Source: a virus. Taken from it: a stretch of 25,007 bases of DNA. The position numbers and the translations under genes are program-made. Shown piece after piece: positions 3,589-24,586 of the stretch (position 1 is the first letter of the stretch; each line of letters opens with the position of its first letter). Under the pieces are notes generated by a model. The model did no database searches. It was not told where the DNA came from and saw only the letters and a program-made list of their open reading frames with translations. The stretch spans positions 1 through 25,007 of IMG/VR virus record IMGVR_UViG_3300048021_000222; one strand, 5' to 3'.

Positions 3589-3872
3589 TATCTAATGCTG
3601 CTTACGTTAACGTTAACCATTGCACCTTTTGCGCCGCGAATTAAGTTCGCACGTTCTGCAGGTGATAGTTCATCTGTTATTTCAATACCGCCATTGCCAG
3701 ACATATCAATCTTCTTATCTGAAAGATTAAGTTGAAAAGTAATACGCGGATCTTCAGGATCACTTAGCGTAGCAGTAAAGCCCTGTACATTCTTGAGGAT
3801 ATACTGTGCTTCATTAATTGTTACAGTGTCACCTGGATTAAGTTCGCTCTGTACTACTTCAAATATTTTCAT
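3588..3872 (-). CDS. Hypothetical 94-aa protein, candidate packaged protein
   Basis: Starts MKIFEVVQSE, like the short N-terminal leaders found on T4 internal head proteins, then a beta-rich domain (residues about 12-60; NPGDTVTINEAQYILKNVQG, in which 'NEAQY' and a following 'SDPEDPR' loop are visible) and a helical tail rich in Ala and Arg. ATG 3872 overlaps the stop of the basic 89-aa gene (ATGA) and its stop overlaps the next start (TAATG). Function unknown. The leader lacks a clean (I/L)xE cleavage site, so packaging is only a possibility. Confidence 0.55.
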   Translation of the reverse strand: MKIFEVVQSELNPGDTVTINEAQYILKNVQGFTATLSDPEDPRITFQLNLSDKKIDMSGNGGIEITDELSPAERANLIRGAKGAMVNVNVSSIR

Positions 3873-4138
3873 CTGCTTGCCTTGTTTAGTGCTGCTACAC
3901 GTTTACTTGCTGGATTAACTCTTTTTGTTTTCTTTGCTTTGCGAGCCATTCTTGCGCCCAGTCTTGCACGAGTCATTTTCATCTTAATACGCTTCTTAAG
4001 ATCTGGTGCTGCAAAGCACTGTGCTGGATTACTTACTACACGACTTTTGCGCCTGCCGCTGACACAGCGAAATTTGCGAACAACTTTGTTGCCGCGTTTT
4101 GCCCATGTCATACCTTCTGTAAGCTCACTTAAAATCAT
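3869..4138 (-). CDS. Small, very basic protein with probable capsid-targeting leader
   Basis: An 89-residue protein. The first eight residues, MILSELTE, end in an (I/L)-x-E site followed by Gly, which matches the consensus cut by the T4 prohead protease gp21. The remaining 81 residues hold 28 Lys/Arg and a single acidic residue, with runs such as KKRIKMKMTRARLGARMARK. That composition is what T4 internal head proteins look like after cleavage: basic, and packed with DNA. Similar small basic proteins are common in marine T4-like phages, usually without a name. A promoter box sits 4 nt before ATG 4138, with no ribosome-binding site, suggesting a leaderless mRNA. The targeting claim is inference. 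Confidence 0.6.
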   Translation of the reverse strand: MILSELTEGMTWAKRGNKVVRKFRCVSGRRKSRVVSNPAQCFAAPDLKKRIKMKMTRARLGARMARKAKKTKRVNPASKRVAALNKASR

Positions 4139-6324: not shown

Positions 6325-6993
6325 TTAGTTAAAGAATCCAGTGCGTCCAACAGCAACACCGCCTGCAAATGCGCCTGCTGCTTTGGCCCACATTGGTATG
6401 CCTTTTTTCTGATCTGGAATAAGTTTTTTGTCGTTTATTGTTCCCATGTATTGCTTGCTGATATCACTGCGGAACTTGCCATCCTGTCGTTGACTGTTAA
6501 CCATTCTTGCACTTAGCCCAGTGCGTTCACCTGCACTGGTGCGTCCATAGTCTGCACTTGCACGTCTTGCTTGCTTTAGGAAACTACTTGTAATACCTAG
6601 ATTACGTTGCTGCTTCATTAAAAATGTTCTATCCATGCCAGTATTACTTCTGCCTGCTGCAATATCACGCAAGTAGCGTTTAAATCCTAGTTCATCAAAA
6701 CTAACACTGCCGCCGCTGGTAACACCTTTGTATTTGCTTGGGTTAGCAATAATACTTGCAAGATTGTGTAAGTCAGTTCCGCCTGGTTTGACACTATTAA
6801 AGTTCATAAACTTTAGTGTATCTTTAGCATACTTTTTTGCAAATGCTGGATTTTCAAAACGCATTTGCTGTAGCATAAGCAGTTGTTCAAAGAAACTTTC
6901 AGCAACATCAGTTGCATCTCTACCAATTGTATCACCAGCAGTGCGGATATATCTTGCTTCTGTAATCTCTTCTCTGATAAATTCAAATGCCAT
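6325..6993 (-). CDS. Candidate internal head protein with prohead-protease site
   Basis: A 222-residue protein. Residues 1-12, MAFEFIREEITE, end in an exact (I/L)xE site followed by Ala, as in T4 prohead-protease substrates. After that it is basic and helical (LLMLQQMRFENPAFAKKYAK; FLKQARRASADYGR) with a Gly/Ala-rich segment near the C-terminus (residues about 203-217, AKAAGAFAGGVAVGR) that could be a glycine-zipper or membrane-inserting piece. Its ATG overlaps the stop of the Lys/Ala-rich gene upstream (TAATG). I infer a protein packed in the head and perhaps ejected with DNA; no named family is recognised. Confidence 0.6.
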   Translation of the reverse strand: MAFEFIREEITEARYIRTAGDTIGRDATDVAESFFEQLLMLQQMRFENPAFAKKYAKDTLKFMNFNSVKPGGTDLHNLASIIANPSKYKGVTSGGSVSFDELGFKRYLRDIAAGRSNTGMDRTFLMKQQRNLGITSSFLKQARRASADYGRTSAGERTGLSARMVNSQRQDGKFRSDISKQYMGTINDKKLIPDQKKGIPMWAKAAGAFAGGVAVGRTGFFN

Positions 6994-7913
6994 TATTTTA
7001 CACCTTGCTGCGTTGATAGACTAGTAGTGTTTTGTTTTGGTAACTTGGGATCTTTTGCAGTTGGTACTGGACTATTGCTATCCATGGTTTTAGTGTTTAT
7101 AGTTTTTGGTTTTTTATACAATGGATCATTGACACCTTGTACTTTTTTAATTGGTGGATTCTTTTCTTTACCAAAGTATACAACGCCATCGCCCACATCA
7201 CCTGCAGTGCCTGTACCTTTTTTTATTTTATCTACTATGCTATCAAATTTGTCGCCTATTGAGCCTGATCCTATAGCATCATTTGCTTGATTTGCTAGTG
7301 CACCTGCTATAGCACCACGTCTAACTGCCTTACCTGGAATTAACTTCTTAGCCTTGCTGCCCATTGAAGCAGCCGTAGCACCGGCTTTTGCGGCATCGTC
7401 ACCTTTCTTAGCAACTGCACCAGCGGCTGCACCAGTTTTGCCAGCGGTTTTTTTATTCTTTGGATCTTTTGCTGCTTTTTTAATATTTGCAATTGCTTTT
7501 TTATCGCCAGGCTTTACTGTAGTAGGCTTGCCGTCAACACCTGCTATGGCCTTCTTGCCGTCTGCGGTTTTAACAACACTGCCTGGTTTTGGTGCTTTGT
7601 CTGCTTGTTTAATTGCGTCTTTTGTAGTGTCCAATGCTTCTTTACCAGCACCTTTAAATTTCATAGCACTCTTAATTGCGCTCCAGCCAACTGATAGGCC
7701 TTTACCAATCGCGCCGCCCACAACTGCGGCTGCAGCATCAGTACCAATGCGTTTACTAAGTTCCGCTCCATCTATTTTTCCACTTTTATAATCTTGAATG
7801 TCATTGTATGTTTCAACACCTTGCCACACTACACCGGCGCCCATGAGAAGTGGAAGAAATATTGCCTCATCTAATTTCTGGTGATCCTCACTGATAAATT
7901 CTTTTGCTCTCAT
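6993..7913 (-). CDS. Lys/Ala/Gly-rich candidate internal head or ejection protein
   Basis: A 306-residue protein beginning MRAKEFISE, which closely follows the pattern of T4 internal-protein leaders and ends in an (I/L)xE site. Residues about 18-33 and 58-78 are Gly/Ala-rich hydrophobic segments (TDAAAAVVGGAIGKGLSVG). Then a long low-complexity region of Lys, Ala, Asp, Gly and Pro (about residues 95-215; for example KKAAKDPKNKKTAGKTG) makes the protein strongly basic. The C-terminal third is Lys/Pro/Thr-rich and probably unfolded. It is coupled by TAATG at both ends. Such proteins could bind packaged DNA or insert into the host membrane at ejection. Both roles are inference. Confidence 0.6.
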   Translation of the reverse strand: MRAKEFISEDHQKLDEAIFLPLLMGAGVVWQGVETYNDIQDYKSGKIDGAELSKRIGTDAAAAVVGGAIGKGLSVGWSAIKSAMKFKGAGKEALDTTKDAIKQADKAPKPGSVVKTADGKKAIAGVDGKPTTVKPGDKKAIANIKKAAKDPKNKKTAGKTGAAAGAVAKKGDDAAKAGATAASMGSKAKKLIPGKAVRRGAIAGALANQANDAIGSGSIGDKFDSIVDKIKKGTGTAGDVGDGVVYFGKEKNPPIKKVQGVNDPLYKKPKTINTKTMDSNSPVPTAKDPKLPKQNTTSLSTQQGVK

Positions 7914-9133
7914 TACTTGCTCCAGTTCTTAACAGCACTGAAGTTGTTTTTACTAAACTCCATGCGGTCCACTAGTTTAACTGCACCACTGTCTGTGCCA
8001 ATAGCAACAAATCCTTCTGGGTTTGTTACTTCGTAGCCTGTGTCTGTGCGGATAAGTGACTTAATACTGTCTACTTTATTCAATTTATTTATAAGCATAT
8101 TTTTTAATGCAATAATGTCTTTGTACACTGCAAGCGCACTGGCAATACCTGTCATGTTGTCAGTAATAAATTTGTTCTGTGCATCAATTTTATCTGTGCG
8201 ATTCTTTACTGCAGGTGCTGCTGGGTCTTGATTCTTTAGTTTTGCAATCTCTTTTTGTATGTAATCATTGTACCACTGTGTAAAGTCTTGCGCAAAACTC
8301 TTTGCATCATCTATTTGTGTATCGCCACGTTTAATTCTTGCATTTACATACTGCATAAGCAGTGCTTTATAGTCGCCGCTAACTGCTGTAAAGTCTGCAG
8401 TTTTAAGTGCGCTGGCTGCAGCATTTAGCCCTTGTAGTATTTGTTTATTCTCTTGCTGTGCTAGACTTGCTTGTCCACTTAGGTCTTTGTAGGTTGCATC
8501 ATCAAACCATACTGCGCTGGTCTTGTTTAGTTCATTTACATCTGCACCAAAACTTGCAGTCATTTCTGGCACACTATCACCTGTGTAGGTTGTGTGAAAT
8601 ATAATACCCATTTGACTTGCGGCAATACGCTTGCCTAGTTCACTGTTTTTAGGAACAGCATAAGCAATAGTGTTGGGTTGGAACACCCAACTCTCTTCGC
8701 CATCAATGTCAGCAGTTTCTAAATCACTTTTGGTATACATCATGTCGCCTTGTAGCACACCTTGTATACCCAGTCCAGATAGCAGTTTAAGTGCCTGTGC
8801 AAGTTTTTCACGAATGCCGCCTTCATAGCCATACTTGTCAAGGTCTGCAGTACTTTTTACAAGTTTGCCGGTTTTGCTAAACACACCTTTAGTACCAACA
8901 AAAAACTTACCATCACTTGGATCAGTGCCAGCAAATATAGCAGGAGCACCATCCCACTTAACAGTTATGTTACCACTGTCGCCGCCATTCTCCAGCATGT
9001 CACGCACACTGTTAATATACTGTAGCGCACTCTGCGCACCAGACTTGCCTTGAAGAAATACTAGATCCTCAATGTGTTCCAAGTGTGTATTTTTGCCTTC
9101 AGCAGCCTCGGCTACTATTTCTCTGAAGCGCAT
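7913..9133 (-). CDS. Ligase-like covalent nucleotidyltransferase homologue with capsid-leader-like N-terminus
   Basis: A 406-residue protein. It begins MRFREIVAE followed by Ala, like T4 internal-protein leaders. The rest shows the ordered motifs of ATP-dependent DNA/RNA ligases and mRNA capping enzymes: motif I Lys59-Trp-Asp-Gly62 (VKWDGAPAI), a motif III-like GVLQGDMMY around Asp130, a motif IIIa-like GIIFHTTYTGD at 176-186, motif IV PEGFVAI around Glu373, and motif V VKLVDRMEFSK with Lys386. An all-helical insert (about residues 215-355) separates motifs IIIa and IV, far longer than in T4 RnlB-type enzymes. The protein looks like a conserved but functionally unassigned family of marine T4-like phages. 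The enzymatic activity is inferred from motifs; the substrate (RNA, DNA or other) is unknown. ATG 9133 lies inside the upstream gene. Confidence 0.6.
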   Translation of the reverse strand: MRFREIVAEAAEGKNTHLEHIEDLVFLQGKSGAQSALQYINSVRDMLENGGDSGNITVKWDGAPAIFAGTDPSDGKFFVGTKGVFSKTGKLVKSTADLDKYGYEGGIREKLAQALKLLSGLGIQGVLQGDMMYTKSDLETADIDGEESWVFQPNTIAYAVPKNSELGKRIAASQMGIIFHTTYTGDSVPEMTASFGADVNELNKTSAVWFDDATYKDLSGQASLAQQENKQILQGLNAAASALKTADFTAVSGDYKALLMQYVNARIKRGDTQIDDAKSFAQDFTQWYNDYIQKEIAKLKNQDPAAPAVKNRTDKIDAQNKFITDNMTGIASALAVYKDIIALKNMLINKLNKVDSIKSLIRTDTGYEVTNPEGFVAIGTDSGAVKLVDRMEFSKNNFSAVKNWSK

Positions 9134-9378
9134 TTGCTTTCGTTGACTTTCCGAATACCTCGCACAAACTTACGACTGTCCTGATGACGAATACTGTTAA
9201 TAAGTCTACGTTCCAGGTCACCTGCCACATCGGCATCGTAGTGCTTGTGCATTTCATTAATAAGATTGATTGCGCTCTCTATCACGTTAGTTGCTCGACT
9301 TTCCATTACATGCTGTCTATCTTTGTCAACAATCATGCTGTTTAGTTCGTGTAGTATACTACGGGTCTGTTTACGCAT
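9115..9378 (-). CDS. Hypothetical small helical protein
   Basis: An 87-residue, almost wholly helical, charged protein (MRKQTRSILHELNSMIVDKD at the start; later AINLINEMHKHYDADVAGDL). No family recognised. It is the first gene of the left minus-strand unit after the divergent promoter at 9401, with GATAGGAT about 6 nt before ATG 9378, and it overlaps the ligase-like gene by 19 bp, so their translation is probably coupled. An (I/L)xE triplet occurs at residues 10-12 (LHE), but the context (Leu after it) is poor for prohead-protease cleavage. Confidence 0.55.
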   Translation of the reverse strand: MRKQTRSILHELNSMIVDKDRQHVMESRATNVIESAINLINEMHKHYDADVAGDLERRLINSIRHQDSRKFVRGIRKVNESKCASEK

Positions 9379-9400: not shown

Positions 9401-9419
9401 GTATTTATCGGTTAAATAC
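9401..9419. promoter_or_regulatory. Divergent late-type promoter pair
   Basis: Inverted repeat GTATTTA-TCGGT-TAAATAC. Read leftward it is GATAAATAC, serving the 9378 gene; read rightward it is TTAAATAC, serving the lipase gene at 9451. The two boxes are almost back to back, so one site could load polymerase in either direction. Confidence 0.5.
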
Positions 9420-10474: not shown

Positions 10475-12172
10475 ATGAAGTTACCTAAGGACGCAACGGC
10501 TCAATTAGAACGATTACTAGGCAGATTCATAAGGCATATTCCGAACAATGCTGAATATCATAACAGGCTTATCGAAGAACTAGAGATTATTCTCAAACTT
10601 CGTTTCGTCGATTACTTCCTCACAATTTGCGATGTACTGACGCTAACCCGTGACATTACTCATATGACTCGTGGTTCAGCAGGGTCTAGTCTCGTCTGTT
10701 ACCTACTGGGTATTACAGACGTGGATCCCATAAGATGGCAAATACCGGTTGCACGTTTCCTAAATCCTTTGAGAGATGATTTACCAGATGTGGATATAGA
10801 CTTTCCACATTGGCAACAGAATGCTGTAATGCAACGGATATTTGATAAATGGCCCGGCAAAAGTGCCAGGATCAGCAACTATGTTACCTACAAGGAGCGC
10901 GGTGCTCGCAGAGAAGCAGCACGACGTCTTGGCGCATCTGGTAAACTTCCTCGCAATTTCAAATACGAAGATTTAGACATCGACAAGGAAGAAGCAATGA
11001 GAATCGAAAAGAAACTAATAGGCAAAAAGAAGGCAATATCAAAACACTGCGGAGGTATACTTGTATTCAATCACAAGATACCAAAAAGTTTAATCAACGC
11101 AGACAATCAAATACTACTGGACAAGCGTGAAGTAGAAGACCTAGAGCATTTAAAAATAGACATACTTGCTAACAGAGGACTTAGTCAACTACTGGAAATA
11201 GACAGCGAAACACCATTGGAAGCATATCCTGAGCAGGACTTTGAAACAAGTCAAATGCTTTGCAGAGGAGAAGTTATCGGTGTAACACAAGCAGAGTCGC
11301 CAGCAATGCGCAGACTATTCCAAGCAATACAACCGCAGAGTAAATCAGACTGTGTGTTTGCTACTGCACTTATACGTCCTGTTGCTACTACAGGCAGACA
11401 AAAAGCAAGTTTTTTCCAGGACTGGACAGAACAAAGACTGGAAGATACGATTGTATATGAGGACGATGCTATTCGTAAAATAGCAAAACTTATCAACTGC
11501 GACATGTATGAAGCAGACATGTATCGTCGTGCGTTTGCAAAACGTGACGAACAAAAAGTTATGCAGTTTATGGAACGCATGGGTGAGAGTGAAAACAAAG
11601 AACAGATCATACAAGAACTATATGGGCTGGGCAGTTTTGGATTGTGCAGAGCGCATGCTGTAAATTTAGGTAGACTTATATGGGCACTTGCATATCAAAA
11701 GGCTCACAACCCCAAGGAGTTTTGGAGGGCAGCACTTAAACATTGTCAGGGCAGTTACAAACGCTGGGTACACAAAACAGAAGCAAAGAATGCTGGCTGG
11801 GATCTGCGTGACCTAGGTTATCCAAACGGCATTACAGAATCACCACAGCAACAATACAAACGTCATGGATATTGGACACAACCAGAGTTTATGCCCAATA
11901 TGTTTGTACAGGAAACCTGGGGTGACAGAGTAAACTTTGCAGGACTAGTTGCTAATGGCCGTGTGTTCAGAGGTGAAGGTGGACGCTATGTTACGTTTGT
12001 AACACTGGGAGTTGCCAATGGCGAGTATGTGGATGTTACTATTAAAAAGCCTTTTGGGTACCGAGACACAGATGTAGTTGCAGGCAGCGGCAAGATACGC
12101 ATGAGCAATGGTAGTCGTTACATTGACTGCTATGATGCAAAAGGTTATAGGTTAGATAGATACTTGTCTTAG
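10475..12172 (+). CDS. C-family DNA polymerase (DnaE, Pol III alpha) homologue without PHP domain
   Basis: A 565-residue protein aligning by eye with the palm, fingers and OB parts of bacterial Pol III alpha, which is about 1,160 residues long. Visible landmarks in order: RGSAGSSLVCYLLGITDVDP (66-85); FLNPLRDDLPDVDIDF (95-110) with catalytic Asp105 and Asp107; YVTYKERGARREAARRLG (136-153) matching the ITFGT.. helix; KHCGGILVF (190-198) matching R/KHAGG; LKIDIL with the third catalytic Asp229; GVTQAESPAMRRL (269-281) matching GVFQLES.GM; RP (301-302); then GFGLCRAHAVNLGRL-like near residue 385 and an OB-like beta region from about 485. The PHP domain, beta-clamp tail and tau-binding domain are absent. 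The catalytic triad is intact, so activity is possible. It is a plus-strand gene, converging with the radical SAM gene. Confidence 0.75.
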   Translation: MKLPKDATAQLERLLGRFIRHIPNNAEYHNRLIEELEIILKLRFVDYFLTICDVLTLTRDITHMTRGSAGSSLVCYLLGITDVDPIRWQIPVARFLNPLRDDLPDVDIDFPHWQQNAVMQRIFDKWPGKSARISNYVTYKERGARREAARRLGASGKLPRNFKYEDLDIDKEEAMRIEKKLIGKKKAISKHCGGILVFNHKIPKSLINADNQILLDKREVEDLEHLKIDILANRGLSQLLEIDSETPLEAYPEQDFETSQMLCRGEVIGVTQAESPAMRRLFQAIQPQSKSDCVFATALIRPVATTGRQKASFFQDWTEQRLEDTIVYEDDAIRKIAKLINCDMYEADMYRRAFAKRDEQKVMQFMERMGESENKEQIIQELYGLGSFGLCRAHAVNLGRLIWALAYQKAHNPKEFWRAALKHCQGSYKRWVHKTEAKNAGWDLRDLGYPNGITESPQQQYKRHGYWTQPEFMPNMFVQETWGDRVNFAGLVANGRVFRGEGGRYVTFVTLGVANGEYVDVTIKKPFGYRDTDVVAGSGKIRMSNGSRYIDCYDAKGYRLDRYLS

Positions 12173-16307: not shown

Positions 16308-17000
16308 CTATAATATTTTACATTCATTTATAAAATTATACAACCTCGAGGCTATATCACTGTGACCTAATTCGTTAGGGTGCAGATCATTGGGTATTAT
16401 TTGATCAGGTTTAAGATAATCTTGGACATTTGTATCAGGCAAATAATAATTTTTATAATCATGATATGTATGATGATCACCCAATGCATTGAACTGCACG
16501 AACGGAATATTTCTAGATTCACACACACTGTTTACTAATAATTTTGCACTATCTGTGAGTGCCTGATTCCCATCTCCTTCTCCTCCTTGGCTGTGCAATA
16601 ACCATTCTTTTCTACTATTTTCAAACTTATTTGCTCTTCCAGCAAGTCCTTTCCAGGGAATTATTCCCTGCTCGTTCCACCAACCACTGTGAGCCCAGCA
16701 ATGCGCTTCTTCGTCCCACCAACTCATCCTATCAACTTGTGTCCAGCCCACACACACCATAACAGGTTCGTCACACATATGCAAATCATAGTTGATAAAA
16801 CGTGCAAAATTTTGTCCTATTGCAAAATTGCCTGCGCCACCGTCCCCTAAATTAATGTAGTCTTGTCCTAGTTTATCAGCAAGTTGGCCTACCCAACAAT
16901 TTTTTTCTCTATAGGGAGTATTATATTCATAGGACTGCAGAGGATCTGCTGCCAAGCCTGCTCCTTGAGTAAAACTGCATCCAATACCTACTAATATCAT
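16308..17000 (-). CDS. SGNH/GDSL-like hydrolase, copy 1
   Basis: A 230-residue protein with the block I motif GCSFTQG (nucleophile Ser9), a block II-like GDGGAGN (52-58) supplying Gly and Asn of the oxyanion hole, a VCVGWT strand (82-87) and a block V-like DLHPNELGH (205-213) with His207. This is the SGNH esterase/acyl-hydrolase fold. There is no signal peptide, so the enzyme is cytoplasmic or carried in the virion. It lies next to a paralogue (17003-17653), and a third copy is at 23903. A perfect TATAAT sits 6 nt before ATG 17000, so the gene may have its own early, leaderless transcript. The substrate is unknown. Confidence 0.75.
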   Translation of the reverse strand: MILVGIGCSFTQGAGLAADPLQSYEYNTPYREKNCWVGQLADKLGQDYINLGDGGAGNFAIGQNFARFINYDLHMCDEPVMVCVGWTQVDRMSWWDEEAHCWAHSGWWNEQGIIPWKGLAGRANKFENSRKEWLLHSQGGEGDGNQALTDSAKLLVNSVCESRNIPFVQFNALGDHHTYHDYKNYYLPDTNVQDYLKPDQIIPNDLHPNELGHSDIASRLYNFINECKIL

Positions 17001-17002
17001 AG

Positions 17003-17653
17003 TTATATTATACGTTCTTTTGCAAAATCATGCAACCTAAATGTGAAATATTCATGCCCTGCTTCATTGGGATGTCCACCACTTGCAAACAAATTTAATC
17101 TATTGTCTTCTTGTGCAGCACGTTTAAGTGTACTGTTCATAGTTAATCCATTTATGAAGTAATTGTCATACTTGCTAACACTGTGCCTGCCCAGTGCATT
17201 AAACTGTAGTATTGGTACACCATGTGCTTTGCATATACTATTAACCATAAGTTTAGCATTGTTAGTCCACATATCGTGACTATTGCTAGTAGATTTAATA
17301 ACCCATTCCCGACAACTAGAATTCCATTCATCTTTAACAAACCCATTGTGTGTCCATGATTCATTGTACCAACTAAAACGTGTTCGTTCTGTCCATGCTA
17401 CACAAATTACAATATGTTCATGAGGATCTCTTGTGTGTAAAAAATAATTTGCAACCTGTTGTGCTATAGCCATATTGCTATTAGCAGGCTCTGCTAGATT
17501 ATCATACTCACAGTTTAAACGTTTTGCTAGTTGTCCTAGCCAAACATTTTCATTTCTGTAACGTGTGTTTGCCCAGTGATCAGTTGGATCTATGTCTGGC
17601 GATTGTAGTTCACTGCCGTAGGTAAAACTACAACCGAATCCTACTAACTTCAA
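17003..17653 (-). CDS. SGNH/GDSL-like hydrolase, copy 2
   Basis: A 216-residue paralogue of the adjacent 16308-17000 product. Block I is GCSFTYG with Ser9; the oxyanion segment is AEPANSN (54-60); a VCVAWTERTRFSW stretch parallels the first copy; FNALGRH is shared almost exactly with FNALGDH of that copy; block V is GGHPNEAGH with His194. The Asp two residues before His in copy 1 is replaced by Gly here. The start is TTG 17653, overlapping the upstream stop as TTGA, with no in-frame ATG before the essential motif. No signal peptide. The pair looks like a tandem duplication that has diverged widely. Confidence 0.72.
   Translation of the reverse strand: MKLVGFGCSFTYGSELQSPDIDPTDHWANTRYRNENVWLGQLAKRLNCEYDNLAEPANSNMAIAQQVANYFLHTRDPHEHIVICVAWTERTRFSWYNESWTHNGFVKDEWNSSCREWVIKSTSNSHDMWTNNAKLMVNSICKAHGVPILQFNALGRHSVSKYDNYFINGLTMNSTLKRAAQEDNRLNLFASGGHPNEAGHEYFTFRLHDFAKERII
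17007..17035 (-). promoter_or_regulatory. Possible early promoter of SGNH copy 1
   Basis: Minus-strand TTGCAT (17035-17030), 17-nt spacer, TATAAT (17012-17007), then 6 nt to ATG 17000. The -35 matches only TTG of TTGACA, so support rests on the -10 and its spacing. Confidence 0.35.
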
Positions 17654-19153: not shown

Positions 19154-19385
19154 GGCCGCCCTTGGTATAGTCTTTAATATCCAAATCGTCTGATATAGTT
19201 TCTGCTACATGCGCAAGCATTTGCTGAATCTGATCATCTTCTAAAAAAGTTTTATACAATACCAAACTATGCTTTAGCAGCATAGTAGCAACATACATAA
19301 AATCTTCGTCACTTGTCAACTGTGTTTGAATGTGTGCTACTAGTGCATTTTGTATATCTTGCATACGTTGTGTGTCGTTACTCAT
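19140..19385 (-). CDS. Hypothetical small acidic helical protein
   Basis: An 81-residue, helical, Asp/Gln-rich protein (MQDIQNALVAHIQTQLTSDE; later DDQIQQMLAHVAETISDDLD) with a short basic end. No family recognised. ATG 19385 overlaps the last codons of the mini-DnaE gene by 8 bp, so it is the end member of that coupled series. At the junction with the converging gene there is a small GC-rich inverted repeat (AGGGCCGCCCT, 19152-19162) that might help end transcription, but it is too short to call a terminator. Confidence 0.55.
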   Translation of the reverse strand: MSNDTQRMQDIQNALVAHIQTQLTSDEDFMYVATMLLKHSLVLYKTFLEDDQIQQMLAHVAETISDDLDIKDYTKGGPTRH

Positions 19386-19944
19386 TACTTTCCTCCAATA
19401 TATTCATGTGTACTGCTACTAGTTGTGCGTAGGCCACACTGTGACTTTTCTTAAAAAAGTATTCATTGCCTTGTGGGCGTTGCCATACACTCTGCGCTAC
19501 CTCTGCCCAGGTCTTGCCTACTAGATGTCTTTTGCCAGGACGAATAACAGCAAGGAACATTGCCATACGAGGTATACTGTTAACTGGTTCAGGCATCTTA
19601 CACATTAGATCCCAGTGATTGCCAATATGTATAACACTCTCAAACCGTGTTTTATCCAAGAGTGTAAGCCAATTAGGATCCTGCATAAGTTCTACTAGGT
19701 GTAGTTCATTGCGTACATGTTCATATACATTTACATTAAGCAAATCTAATTTAAAGTATCCTATATCTTCTGCTCGTTTGTGTTCCAGCGTAGCAATACC
19801 ATCATGTGCAACAGGAATATCTGTAAAGTAAACTCCAGTGTTATGTCGTGCATCAGTGTTGAGCCTAGCGGGCACACCTTGAATGTAGTCTAGCAACCGT
19901 GTGCGATCAGCAAAGTCAATGTCGACATCTGGCATATCATACAT
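19378..19944 (-). CDS. Mini DnaE-like protein (Pol III alpha palm motifs only)
   Basis: A 188-residue protein from ATG 19944, which overlaps the upstream stop (TAATG) and has AGGA 5 nt before it. It opens directly on the Pol III alpha active-site motif: MPDVDIDFADR with Asp6 and Asp8. Further DnaE landmarks follow in order: HNTGVYFTDIP (34-44, compare HAGGVVIAP), GYFKLDLLNV with third Asp67, a VIHIGNHWDLM segment where DnaE has FQLES.GM, AVIRPGK (132-138, compare ALYRPGP) and YFFKKSHSVAYAQLVA (162-177, compare YGFNKSHSAAYA). Fingers, PHP, OB and clamp-binding parts are missing. I recall similar short proteins in other marine T4-like phages, unassigned. With no fingers it is unlikely to polymerise alone. 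Confidence 0.7.
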   Translation of the reverse strand: MYDMPDVDIDFADRTRLLDYIQGVPARLNTDARHNTGVYFTDIPVAHDGIATLEHKRAEDIGYFKLDLLNVNVYEHVRNELHLVELMQDPNWLTLLDKTRFESVIHIGNHWDLMCKMPEPVNSIPRMAMFLAVIRPGKRHLVGKTWAEVAQSVWQRPQGNEYFFKKSHSVAYAQLVAVHMNILEESNE

Positions 19945-20675
19945 TATAGTCCTGCTTCCTTGAGTATATGTTTTACCCATTCTGTGTCCGCAAAGTAATC
20001 TACAAACTTGCGCTTCCAATAGTCTGGATCAATATATGGAAATATCATTTCAATCTGCTCTGTGCTTAGTTTGTCCAGTGCTTGTTGCCCACTAGTACAG
20101 TTAAAAATAATCCAAGCACTGATGCGTCCTGTTGTAATATGCTGCACAAGAACATTACCGTTAACATAGTTAAAGTAATGGTTGAATACACTTTCTTTTT
20201 CTTCTGCCCAGGTTTCCATGGTCTTTATGCTACGCTCCAGTGCATCCTGTGTTGCTTCTTTGCGCAAGTGCTCCATCAAATATTCCTGATACACTGCATC
20301 CTTGCACCAGTAGTCCAGTTTCTTATTGCTTTTAATTACCCAGTCAATAAACTTAGCAGTGTTAATAGCACGAATATTCACCATGTGTCTACCAAACTTT
20401 ACAAACGCATTATAGTATGCACTGTCACTAAAGTCTTTGTACGTCTTAAATTTTGCACTGCCCTGTGTAAGTTCATAGAAACGCAAATAAGCAGTCATGC
20501 CCAGTTTAACACCTGCTTCATTCTCTTGTTGTGCTCTGCGCTTTGGCTCGCAAAGATGCGCAGCAAGTGTGCTTTCCTTGCGATACGCTTTGCCGCAGTA
20601 CTGGCATATGTAGTCTTTAGTTTCCATACTATAGTTAATTATAGCATCTTTTATAACGCTTGTAAAATCGTTCAT
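19944..20675 (-). CDS. C2HC zinc-finger protein, conserved-looking in marine T4-like phages
   Basis: A 243-residue protein. A single zinc-finger-like element near the N-terminus has Cys24-x2-Cys27 (YICQYCGKAY), then His40-x-Cys42 (AAHLCEPKRR). The rest is helical and Trp/Tyr-rich (FVKFGRHMVNIRAINTAKF; HITTGRISAWIIFNCTSGQQ; IDPDYWKRKF), without catalytic motifs I recognise. The finger and basic patch suggest DNA or RNA binding. ATG 20675 overlaps the upstream stop (ATGA); Met17 is an alternative start just before the finger. It sits between the gp62-like and mini-DnaE genes, overlapping both, so it is made with them and may share a replication complex. That last point is inference. Confidence 0.65.
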   Translation of the reverse strand: MNDFTSVIKDAIINYSMETKDYICQYCGKAYRKESTLAAHLCEPKRRAQQENEAGVKLGMTAYLRFYELTQGSAKFKTYKDFSDSAYYNAFVKFGRHMVNIRAINTAKFIDWVIKSNKKLDYWCKDAVYQEYLMEHLRKEATQDALERSIKTMETWAEEKESVFNHYFNYVNGNVLVQHITTGRISAWIIFNCTSGQQALDKLSTEQIEMIFPYIDPDYWKRKFVDYFADTEWVKHILKEAGL

Positions 20676-22470: not shown

Positions 22471-23928
22471 CTAATTCCAATCTGCTTTCTCTACCGTAAA
22501 CGGATAGTTTGCTTCTTTATAAAATGCTTTACGTTTTGTTAAATGTCTTTTAGCGTATTTTGCTGTACTGGTTATGTCCCAGATTTGTACGAAGTCTTTG
22601 TCTTCCGCTTTGCGAATGCCGCGACCAATGCTTTGTATAACTCTAACAAAACTTTTACCGGGCTCAACAAGCACAAGATTAAAGATACGAGGAATATTGA
22701 TACCCACCGCTGCAACTCCATAAGTGGCGATAATGACCTTGCCTGTAGCAGTTGATACCTCGTCATATTCTGTTTTTCTGTCTGCACCTTTTGTACTTCC
22801 TGATACGAACACACTGTCTGGGATACGACTTGCTAGTTCATTGCCTGCTGCAATTCTGTCCACTAGTATAAGTGTGTTGCCTGTGTCCTTGATACTATCA
22901 CATAGTCCTGAGATATAATCAAGTCTGCCTTTATCTTCTAGTAAGTATTTAAGCTCGCTTTGATAATTTGTATGCACAACTGTATCAATCATTTGTACAA
23001 CGTTCACGTGACACTGTGCAAGCACACCTTTGTCCTGCAGTTCTTTTGCGCTGATCTGATTTATAACAGGACCAATACTGCACACAATACCCACGTTCTC
23101 AAACTTCTCTTTAGGTACTGTGCCAGTTAGTCCCCAACGTATGGGTATATGGCTCATTACACCCGTTAGCAGGGCTGTAAGGGCGTCTGCTTTAGCCATA
23201 TGCACTTCGTCCACCATAATACACACCACATCCTCAAGGAACTCACCAATGCTTATAGGCGCTACTGCGTTCTTTGTATTTTTTAGTAGTATGTTTAGAC
23301 TTTGCCAAGTGCAAATGGTATGTGTTTTACCAAACTCTTTACGCTCACCATAGTACACTCCAACATCCAATCCCATGTTGACATAGTCTTCTTCTGTTTG
23401 TGTAACTAGACTTTTGTTGGGAACAATAACTACACTGCGTCCATAGTTCTCAACACTCTTGCTCAGTGCTGCAGTCATCAGCGTTTTACCTGCACCGGTA
23501 GCAATCTCTTGTAGGCTCTGTGGATTTGCTAGGAACTCGTTGATTGTTTCAACTTGGTAGTCACGCAATATAATAGGCTTACCCTGTGCAGGATGCCCCT
23601 TTGGCCACGCTACATGACTAAAACTTTCTTCTGTTACAGGCTCTAATACAAACTCAGTCTGATATTCACGCATGTCATTCAGCGTAACATCATATCCCTG
23701 TTGTACCAGTACTGGAAGAATGTCCGGGAGGAGGTTTATATATGTACTCCCTCCAAGTTGAAAAAATGCTTTTTTGCCGTCCCAGCGTCCAAGTTTGACA
23801 GCAGGTAGATAACGAGCATAGGGGATCTCATACTTGAACATATTGGATAACTTTTTGCGAGTATCCAAGTCCAATCCTTCGATCTTACAGTTCACTTCGT
23901 CTTTAACGTGTATTATTGCAGGCTTCAT
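22471..23928 (-). CDS. uvsW: UvsW-like DNA/RNA helicase (SF2)
   Basis: A 485-residue protein of the T4 UvsW family, which remodels recombination intermediates and removes R-loops, ending origin-dependent replication. Motifs: RDYQ (122-125), Walker A ATGAGKT (143-149), DEVH box at 240-243, motif III GLTGT (266-270) and motif VI QSIGRGIRK (432-440). An N-terminal domain of about 115 residues (RWDGKKAFFQLGG within it) matches the small DNA-binding part of UvsW. The length is close to T4 UvsW (503). The start at ATG 23928 has GGAAAAG upstream and overlaps the SGNH gene by 26 bp. Confidence 0.92.
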   Translation of the reverse strand: MKPAIIHVKDEVNCKIEGLDLDTRKKLSNMFKYEIPYARYLPAVKLGRWDGKKAFFQLGGSTYINLLPDILPVLVQQGYDVTLNDMREYQTEFVLEPVTEESFSHVAWPKGHPAQGKPIILRDYQVETINEFLANPQSLQEIATGAGKTLMTAALSKSVENYGRSVVIVPNKSLVTQTEEDYVNMGLDVGVYYGERKEFGKTHTICTWQSLNILLKNTKNAVAPISIGEFLEDVVCIMVDEVHMAKADALTALLTGVMSHIPIRWGLTGTVPKEKFENVGIVCSIGPVINQISAKELQDKGVLAQCHVNVVQMIDTVVHTNYQSELKYLLEDKGRLDYISGLCDSIKDTGNTLILVDRIAAGNELASRIPDSVFVSGSTKGADRKTEYDEVSTATGKVIIATYGVAAVGINIPRIFNLVLVEPGKSFVRVIQSIGRGIRKAEDKDFVQIWDITSTAKYAKRHLTKRKAFYKEANYPFTVEKADWN

Positions 23929-24550
23929 ATATCTTTTCCGCTATTTGTTTATGACCTTGTTCCAGTGGATGGCCGCCAGGTCCATGCGGTGTATCATATG
24001 CCCATTCGACAAATCCAAGATTGGGCCAACCTAGAAACTTAGTTTCATCTATTAGTTCGTAATACCCTTGATTGTCTTTATAGTATTTGCCAAAACGGTG
24101 CTGATTGTCAAACACATTACACATTATATAATCTATTCGTTTATTTTGCAAGAAACTCTGTAATAGAATAACTTGTCGCAACCAACGCCTGTATTCATGC
24201 TCGGCATTGTTATTAATAGTAATATATTTAATAAGTTCTTTGCGATATTCTAACACAGGATCTTGATCAAAAACGCGACTACTGCAGCCAGGCCATATGT
24301 CATAAGCACCCCATTCATCAGCATGCTCTTGTCTACCGCAACTTGTCCAAGCAACTACTACTAACTTTGGTTTGTGCTTTGCAACTGCTTGAATAGTTTT
24401 CTTTACAATAAACTCATTACCAACACCAGGAGTACCATCGTTAATTAAATGGCAACCAAGACGATCAGCAAGTAACACAGGCCAGGCTTGCGTTGCCGGA
24501 TCTGGCAATTCTTGTCCGTATGTAAAACTATCACCAACTGTGTAAAGCAT
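23903..24550 (-). CDS. SGNH/GDSL-like hydrolase, copy 3
   Basis: A 215-residue product if started at ATG 24550 (MLYTVGDSFTYG), which places the nucleophile Ser8 at the same distance from the start as in copies 1 and 2; ATG 24559 adds three residues. Block I is GDSFTYG; the oxyanion segment is DGTPGVGNE; a VVVAWTSCGR strand matches VCVAWT in the others; block V is GGHPLEQGH. The HRFGKYYKD region is unique to this copy. TATAAT lies 7 nt before the ATG chosen here, overlapping the earlier ATG, which favours the later start and a leaderless mRNA. No signal peptide. Substrate unknown. Confidence 0.72.
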   Translation of the reverse strand: MLYTVGDSFTYGQELPDPATQAWPVLLADRLGCHLINDGTPGVGNEFIVKKTIQAVAKHKPKLVVVAWTSCGRQEHADEWGAYDIWPGCSSRVFDQDPVLEYRKELIKYITINNNAEHEYRRWLRQVILLQSFLQNKRIDYIMCNVFDNQHRFGKYYKDNQGYYELIDETKFLGWPNLGFVEWAYDTPHGPGGHPLEQGHKQIAEKIYEACNNTR

Positions 24551-24557
24551 AATATCC

Positions 24558-24586
24558 ATTATAACATAAAGTGAACGGGTAGTCTA
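24558..24586 (-). promoter_or_regulatory. Probable early promoter of SGNH copy 3
   Basis: Minus-strand TAGACT (24586-24581), exactly 17-nt spacer, perfect TATAAT (24563-24558), 7 nt to ATG 24550. The -35 matches TTGACA in 4 of 6 positions and lies in the loop and arm of the hairpin at 24573-24604. Confidence 0.5.

Follow-up and report, generated by a model that had tools for sequence, protein, structure and literature searches.

A DUF6267 protein of marine T4-like phages as a putative nucleotidyltransferase with a head-targeting leader

Do some phages carry a ligase-like enzyme in their heads and deliver it with their DNA? The question is raised by a virus contig of 25,007 bases, analysed here as a whole and called the window (the record is the window itself). 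One of its open reading frames combines motifs of covalent nucleotidyltransferases with an N-terminus resembling the leaders of T4 internal head proteins, as an earlier note on this DNA had pointed out. A ligase-like appearance together with a head-loading tag at the N-terminus implies that the phage probably delivers the enzyme into the host with its DNA. The reading that we favor, with a probability of about 0.65, is that of a divergent covalent nucleotidyltransferase that is loaded into the head, cut after Glu9, and injected with the DNA.

7913..9133, minus strand: DUF6267 protein, putative covalent nucleotidyltransferase with a capsid-targeting leader, 406 aa, ATG start

The open reading frame is real. 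It lies on the minus strand, which the earlier note did not state, and consists of one full-length DUF6267 domain (PF19782; 347 bits against a curated cut-off of 27, Pfam E 2e-103). It also belongs to PHROG 455, and neither family has a recorded function; the member in phage Syn1 is T4-LIKE GC 71. Relatives are found in 467 phage records, 374 of which cover at least 80% of the length of the protein. Nearly all of these phages are T4-like phages of Synechococcus or Prochlorococcus; other carriers are phages of Methylophilales, Pelagibacter, Stenotrophomonas, Vibrio, and Pseudoalteromonas. The family is spread over Kyanoviridae and further marine T4-like phages. The literature searched does not mention DUF6267, and no earlier description of its nucleotidyltransferase motifs or leader was found. 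A search of NCBIfam gave nothing useful, and a close search with the member from Vibrio phage EniLVp02 gave no matches. By these searches the family is already known but uncharacterised, and placing it in the ligase superfamily and among head cargo is likely the new part. The earlier note had the observation right, and its interpretation is supported in part: the catalytic and the targeting side both withstood tests capable of refuting them. It omitted the known family, the cyanophage members that lack a leader, and the fact that the leader is one residue shorter than in T4.

Catalytic motifs and predicted fold

Conservation was assessed in two alignments, one of 42 divergent homologues (down to 25% identity) and one of 99 sequences. 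Seven residues, K59, D61, G62, D130, E373, G374, and K386, are invariant in both, and the invariant residues follow the motif I, III, IV, V order of covalent nucleotidyltransferases. Since they are invariant in both sets, the motif string is not a product of chance. R390, H20, E22, K82, H180, N264, and K344 are also invariant in the 42 homologues.

8948..8959, minus strand: motif I, K59-W-D-G62, with the candidate nucleotide-accepting lysine; K59, D61, and G62 invariant
8744..8752, minus strand: motif III-like Q128-G-D130, on strand 126-134; D130 invariant
8582..8611, minus strand: motif IIIa-like strand, residues 175-184; H180 invariant in the 42 homologues, and G176, H180, T181, and Y183 in the 99 sequences
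8072..8458, minus strand: all-helical insert, residues 226-354, with invariant N264 and K344; shorter in homologues of about 300 aa
8006..8017, minus strand: motif IV, E373-G-F-V376; E373, G374, and V376 invariant; in register with E227 of T4 Rnl1
7964..7978, minus strand: motif V, K386-L-V-D-R390; K386 and R390 invariant

The motifs that the earlier note had named (K59-W-D-G62, D130, E373-G-F, and K386) are all present, and Lys59, whose conservation it had proposed as a check, is invariant in both alignments. Its segment 176-186 lies on the predicted strand 175-184 and holds the conserved G176, H180, T181, and Y183. The helical insert does split the motifs, but it spans about 129 residues rather than about 140. 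In the AlphaFold model (pLDDT 88, pTM 0.83), motif I is flanked by predicted strands 55-59 and 65-70, and the last two strands carry motifs IV and V. For the base-stacking aromatic residue of motif IIIa, the conserved Y158 and strand 175-184 offer at most a candidate.

T4 RNA ligase 1 (Rnl1, also RnlA or gp63) shares with DUF6267 the KxDG of motif I, the EGxV of motif IV, and the 13-residue spacing from the motif IV glutamate to the motif V lysine (E227-K240 in Rnl1, E373-K386 here), but there is no sequence match at the family level. The helical domain of Rnl1 comes after its catalytic domain, whereas that of DUF6267 sits inside it. Rnl1 lacks the capsid-targeting (CTS) leader that the window protein bears, and it is not known as a packaged protein. 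The acidic position of motif III, normally Glu in covalent nucleotidyltransferases, is the invariant Asp130 in a QGD or QAD context. Motif V keeps its first lysine, Lys386, but has Val at the +2 position, so the second lysine of KxK is missing. About 16 residues follow motif V, and DUF6267 therefore has neither the C-terminal OB fold nor the motif VI of DNA ligases.

The Asp in motif III, the missing lysine in motif V, and the lack of an OB domain are compatible with a packaged internal head protein that has no enzymatic activity and whose ligase-like fold has decayed, and T4 IPI sets a precedent as a packaged protein that is an inhibitor and no enzyme (PMC3012670). A decayed fold, however, would not keep its would-be catalytic residues invariant across 42 diverged sequences, and phage S-PM2 carries a fusion of the domain with a cytidylyltransferase-like enzyme domain. 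We regard such decay as unlikely.

Structural comparison points to the ligases through many individually weak matches. A Foldseek search of the PDB with the full-length model is dominated by the insert and gives no significant match; DNA ligases appear at ranks 14, 20, 25, and 32. Against a library of viral models, RNA ligases are the first named matches outside the family (ranks 17, 21, 24, and 26, all weak). Because the full-length form gave no significant PDB match, a 298-aa homologue whose insert is much smaller was modelled as well (pLDDT 86.5). DNA ligases, the ligase type also matched in the PDB by the long form, take all of its first eight PDB ranks. Of the 50 PDB matches listed, 31 are ligases of DNA or RNA or capping enzymes; the other 19 comprise 18 carbonic anhydrases and one other protein. 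The structure prediction that the earlier note had called for therefore yields an enrichment of ligases and capping enzymes for the nearly insert-free form, but the best E is 0.066, and no PDB match of either model reaches E 0.001.

A Pfam scan of 42 DUF6267 members finds no ligase family, and a PDB sequence search with the protein and the family profile finds no ligase, just low-complexity matches to the helical insert. When the family profile is aligned with T4 Rnl1, motifs IV and V fall in register with E 0.025; the accepted pair Rnl1-Rnl2 gives E 0.017. Among 141 single sequences, hhalign scores fail to rank ligases above decoys (RnlA is 8th, gp30 19th, and RnlB 60th), and in the same test the motif IV glutamate of both T4 RNA ligases aligns in register. 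As we read these profile comparisons, the score is too weak to discriminate and the register alone is informative. The ligase-like identity proposed in the earlier note is supported by ordered invariant motifs and by the order of secondary structures, but sequence profiles do not settle the superfamily. Taking together the invariance and order of the motifs, the order of secondary structures, and the enriched but individually weak fold match, DUF6267 very probably belongs to the covalent nucleotidyltransferase superfamily.

The same results bear on whether the protein might be a packaged enzyme of another kind, with a convergent KxDG...EG...K order and ligase matches that reflect a generic beta core. 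No single fold match is significant, carbonic anhydrases are also within the top 50 PDB matches, and profile searches leave ligases mixed with decoys. Convergence would nevertheless have to produce seven invariant residues in the correct order and a motif IV glutamate in register with both T4 RNA ligases; it would also have to explain why the leading coherent matches of the insert-free form are ligases, which turn up in both structure libraries and for both models. We consider it improbable. Weak matches to LigA adenylation domains and an NMNAT-like neighbor raised the idea of an NAD+-dependent, LigA-like variant, which was set aside because the evidence was too thin.

The leader and its genomic setting

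9107..9133, minus strand: leader MRFREIVAE, residues 1-9, with a predicted prohead-protease cut after Glu9 (V-A-E/A, the slash marking the cut); E9 conserved

The N-terminus reads MRFREIVAE-A, as the earlier note had it, and is a variant of the T4-type leader. E9 is at least 90% conserved in the alignment of 99 sequences, and residues 1-13 are disordered in the AlphaFold model (pLDDT < 50). T4 IPII, IPIII, and Alt, the last a packaged and injected enzyme, likewise have a short N-terminal leader that ends in hydrophobic-x-Glu (MKTYQEFIAE/A in IPII/IPIII); the T4 leader has 10 residues rather than 9, and the bodies of the T4 internal proteins are unrelated in sequence to the window protein. The first 10 residues are enough for packaging in T4; targeting needs residues 4 and 7, processing needs residues 8 and 10, and the protease gp21 cleaves after L/I-x-E (PMC9026906). 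The window leader falls outside this exact register: it has F3-I6-V7-E9, which keeps the spacing one residue shorter, with Val in place of Leu/Ile at P3.

Leader statistics were taken over 101 leader-bearing homologues (< 85% identity); the homologues share descent, so their counts are not independent. [LIVFM]-x-Glu stands directly before the conserved HLEHxED core in 98 of the 101 leaders (2000 shuffles: mean about 32, maximum 47). The fuller pattern hydrophobic-x-x-hydrophobic-[ILVMF]-x-Glu is found in 74, against 2.8 in shuffles, and 53 homologues have the exact T4 register (residues 4, 7, 8, and 10). In several relatives, 60 to 290 extra residues separate the N-terminus from the DUF6267 core, and hydrophobic-x-Glu still directly precedes the core (NVTE/A in L008 and L030, QLVE/G in L066, VVCE/S in L077, ITLE/D in L037). 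Judged from these sequences, a site kept despite domain insertions shows the behavior expected of a cleavage site under selection.

Six of these relatives (L008, L009, L010, L030, L031, and L032) have an extra N-terminal domain of 115-120 residues (YGDCPIFAIAL...HAFV...VIDANG) between leader and DUF6267. It has no Pfam match; its Cys, His, and Asp residues hint at a papain-like fold, and the candidate domain would be released by a second VTE/A site.

The genes around DUF6267 are also suggestive of head cargo and late expression.

9115..9378, minus strand: upstream overlapping gene, first of the operon, PHROG virion structural protein (head and packaging; phrog_11854, E 5e-15)
9402..9409, minus strand: T4-type late-promoter element GATAAATA, 23 bp before the first gene of the operon
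6993..7913, minus strand: downstream gene, 306 aa, Ala/Lys-rich, with a leader-like start MRAKEFISE/D... (I-S-E/D)
6325..6993, minus strand: next gene, 222 aa, beginning MAFEFIREEITE/A..., with an I-T-E/A site

Of the eight minus-strand NATAAATA sites in the window, six are followed by a start codon within 60 bp (P 7e-6). It is this placement alone that stands out; the window as a whole shows no excess of the element. Upstream of DUF6267 in other loci there is a weak excess only, since the gene often lies inside operons. The placement of GATAAATA and NATAAATA suggests that the operon may be transcribed late. Neither the 306-aa nor the 222-aa gene has the strict leader pattern; their starts are looser and leader-like, and the 306-aa product is possibly further head cargo. 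Among 825 same-strand neighbor ORFs of DUF6267 loci, 69 have CTS-like starts, where shuffles predict 7.1, and 60 of the 69 are no more than 1.5 kb away.

Elsewhere in the window (3869-4138, minus strand), a small, very basic protein beginning MILSELTE/GMTWAKR... has a possible L-T-E/G site and lies 4 bp behind a CATAAATA element. By its sequence, it is a candidate internal head protein.

Leaderless orthologues and virion proteomes

Cyanophage members begin MAKNTHLEHLED or MPNKHLEHLED, which is the start point of the trimmed form of the others. They have no leader and retain every motif, and their gene is found near the replication genes uvsX, gp41, and mazG. A tree built from the core only requires at least six changes of leader state (98 rows with a leader and 22 without); in the wider clade of the window protein, leader and cleavage site are present in all 27 rows. 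Many short cyanophage forms (L213, L222-L301) begin MCDSTLTCYNNGI... ahead of MPNKHLEHLED. This extension is conserved and is not a CTS, and alternatively MPNK may be the real start.

Leaderless members provide a comparison with tagged proteins of the same phages. In S-SZBM1 the leaderless DUF6267 protein (taken to be S-SZBM1_141 from its position next to _140) is absent from the 30 virion proteins detected, and the adjoining cytidylyltransferase, which starts MRFRQFIIEA, is present (PMC9146016). Leaderless gp87 of S-CREM2 was likewise not detected in the virion, and three tagged enzymes were: a cytidylyltransferase (MKNFSSFLTEA), a kinase (MKRFDAFLTEE), and a SAM hydrolase (MKDFDSFLEEF) (PMC10665884). 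Over the 202 ORFs of S-CREM2, the strict leader pattern picks out four virion proteins and one other (Fisher P 0.008). The cytidylyltransferase of S-SM1, which begins MKKFSAFLNEA, was detected in the virion; its S-PM2 counterpart in GC 190 was not (PMC3037559). In S-PM2 a leaderless DUF6267 comes first, with the cytidylyltransferase-like (CTP_transf_like) domain fused after it. The search turned up no virion proteome of any phage whose DUF6267 carries the leader. The pattern of leaderless proteins absent and tagged proteins present is consistent across the lists, and absence is weak evidence for any single protein.

The cyanophage virion cytidylyltransferase, T4-LIKE GC 190, is usually the next gene or a near neighbor of DUF6267, has a CTS-like leader in several phages, and is detected in the S-SM1, S-SZBM1, and S-CREM2 virions. 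Its CTP_transf_like domain has a nucleotidyltransferase fold other than that of DUF6267, and the window holds no copy. The S-PM2 fusion (L368:2026-3805, p141-p142) is split into two ORFs in the reference record; a 591-aa viral model (A0A0M6VVW4) spans both domains. S-CREM2 gp12 (L219:7704-10313), annotated as a Cas9 nuclease and detected in the virion, has a CTS-like RFASFMAE/A near residues 18-25, and may therefore also be head cargo.

A nucleotidyltransferase that acts only in the cytoplasm during replication, with an incidental N-terminal extension, probably describes the cyanophage members, given their leaderless starts with all motifs kept, their replication-gene neighbors, and their absence from two virion lists, but is very unlikely for the window protein, whose whole clade keeps leader and site even with domains inserted behind the leader, whose neighbors are enriched for the same leader, and whose operon follows a late-promoter element. 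The head address proposed in the earlier note is strongly supported by five comparative lines: the leader statistics, the site kept behind insertions, the CTS-tagged neighbors, the virion proteomes of relatives, and the late-promoter positions.

Proposed role at phage entry

From the computed motif invariance, leader conservation, fold resemblance, tagged neighborhood, and late-promoter positions, we infer packaging, cleavage, injection, and activity of the putative nucleotidyltransferase as follows. The protein would belong to the lysyl-NMP superfamily of DNA ligases, RNA ligases, and capping enzymes, with an all-helical domain between motifs IIIa and IV. It would be synthesised late and drawn by its N-terminal capsid-targeting sequence into the prohead core, where the prohead protease would trim it after Glu9. 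The trimmed form would be stored in the head and then injected alongside the DNA. In the cell, a nucleotide would be charged on Lys59 and passed to a nucleic-acid end; the most likely purpose would be the sealing or repair, as infection starts, of RNA or DNA that host nucleases have damaged. The substrate is a guess: an RNA end is our tentative first choice, and a DNA nick or end, or else a protein or other target, are each possible though rather unlikely.

The HTVC008M block that contains DUF6267 and the cytidylyltransferase also encodes a P-loop kinase of the Zeta/AAA_33 type and a nucleotidase, HAD NT5C (L083:9727-10389 and L083:14293-14883). This block recalls the T4 PseT kinase-phosphatase, the partner of RNA ligase. 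Together with the S-PM2 fusion, it hints at nucleic-acid repair or nucleotide metabolism at entry. A broader and doubtful idea is that marine T4-like phages inject a pre-made repair kit, in which tagged DUF6267, a tagged or neighboring cytidylyltransferase/NMNAT-like protein, a P-loop kinase (AAA_33/Zeta), and a HAD-phosphatase (as in HTVC008M) would, during the first minutes, reverse a loss of NAD+ or the effects of the host's nuclease defences; cyanophages would make the ligase-like part in the cell. If true, this would to our knowledge be the first phage-packaged ligase-type enzyme.

The proposal gives DUF6267, a family in hundreds of sequenced phages for which no function is recorded, a testable function and location. 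It would add a third kind of head-delivered enzyme to T4 Alt and the cyanophage virion kinases and cytidylyltransferases. The presence or absence of a leader on otherwise matching enzymes amounts to a natural experiment on what leads phages to package particular enzymes, and the leader rule allows head cargo in marine T4-like phages to be predicted from sequence.

Two further sets of genes in the window are of note. The ORFs at 10475-12172 (plus strand) and 19378-20019 (minus strand) resemble bacterial DNA polymerase III alpha, the first by Pfam and the second by eye, and are possibly a split or unusual polymerase; the phage also has T4-like helicase and primase genes. Three similar GDSL/SGNH-hydrolase-like proteins are encoded at 16308-17000, 17003-17653, and 23903-24559 (minus strand), the first with a weak Pfam match.
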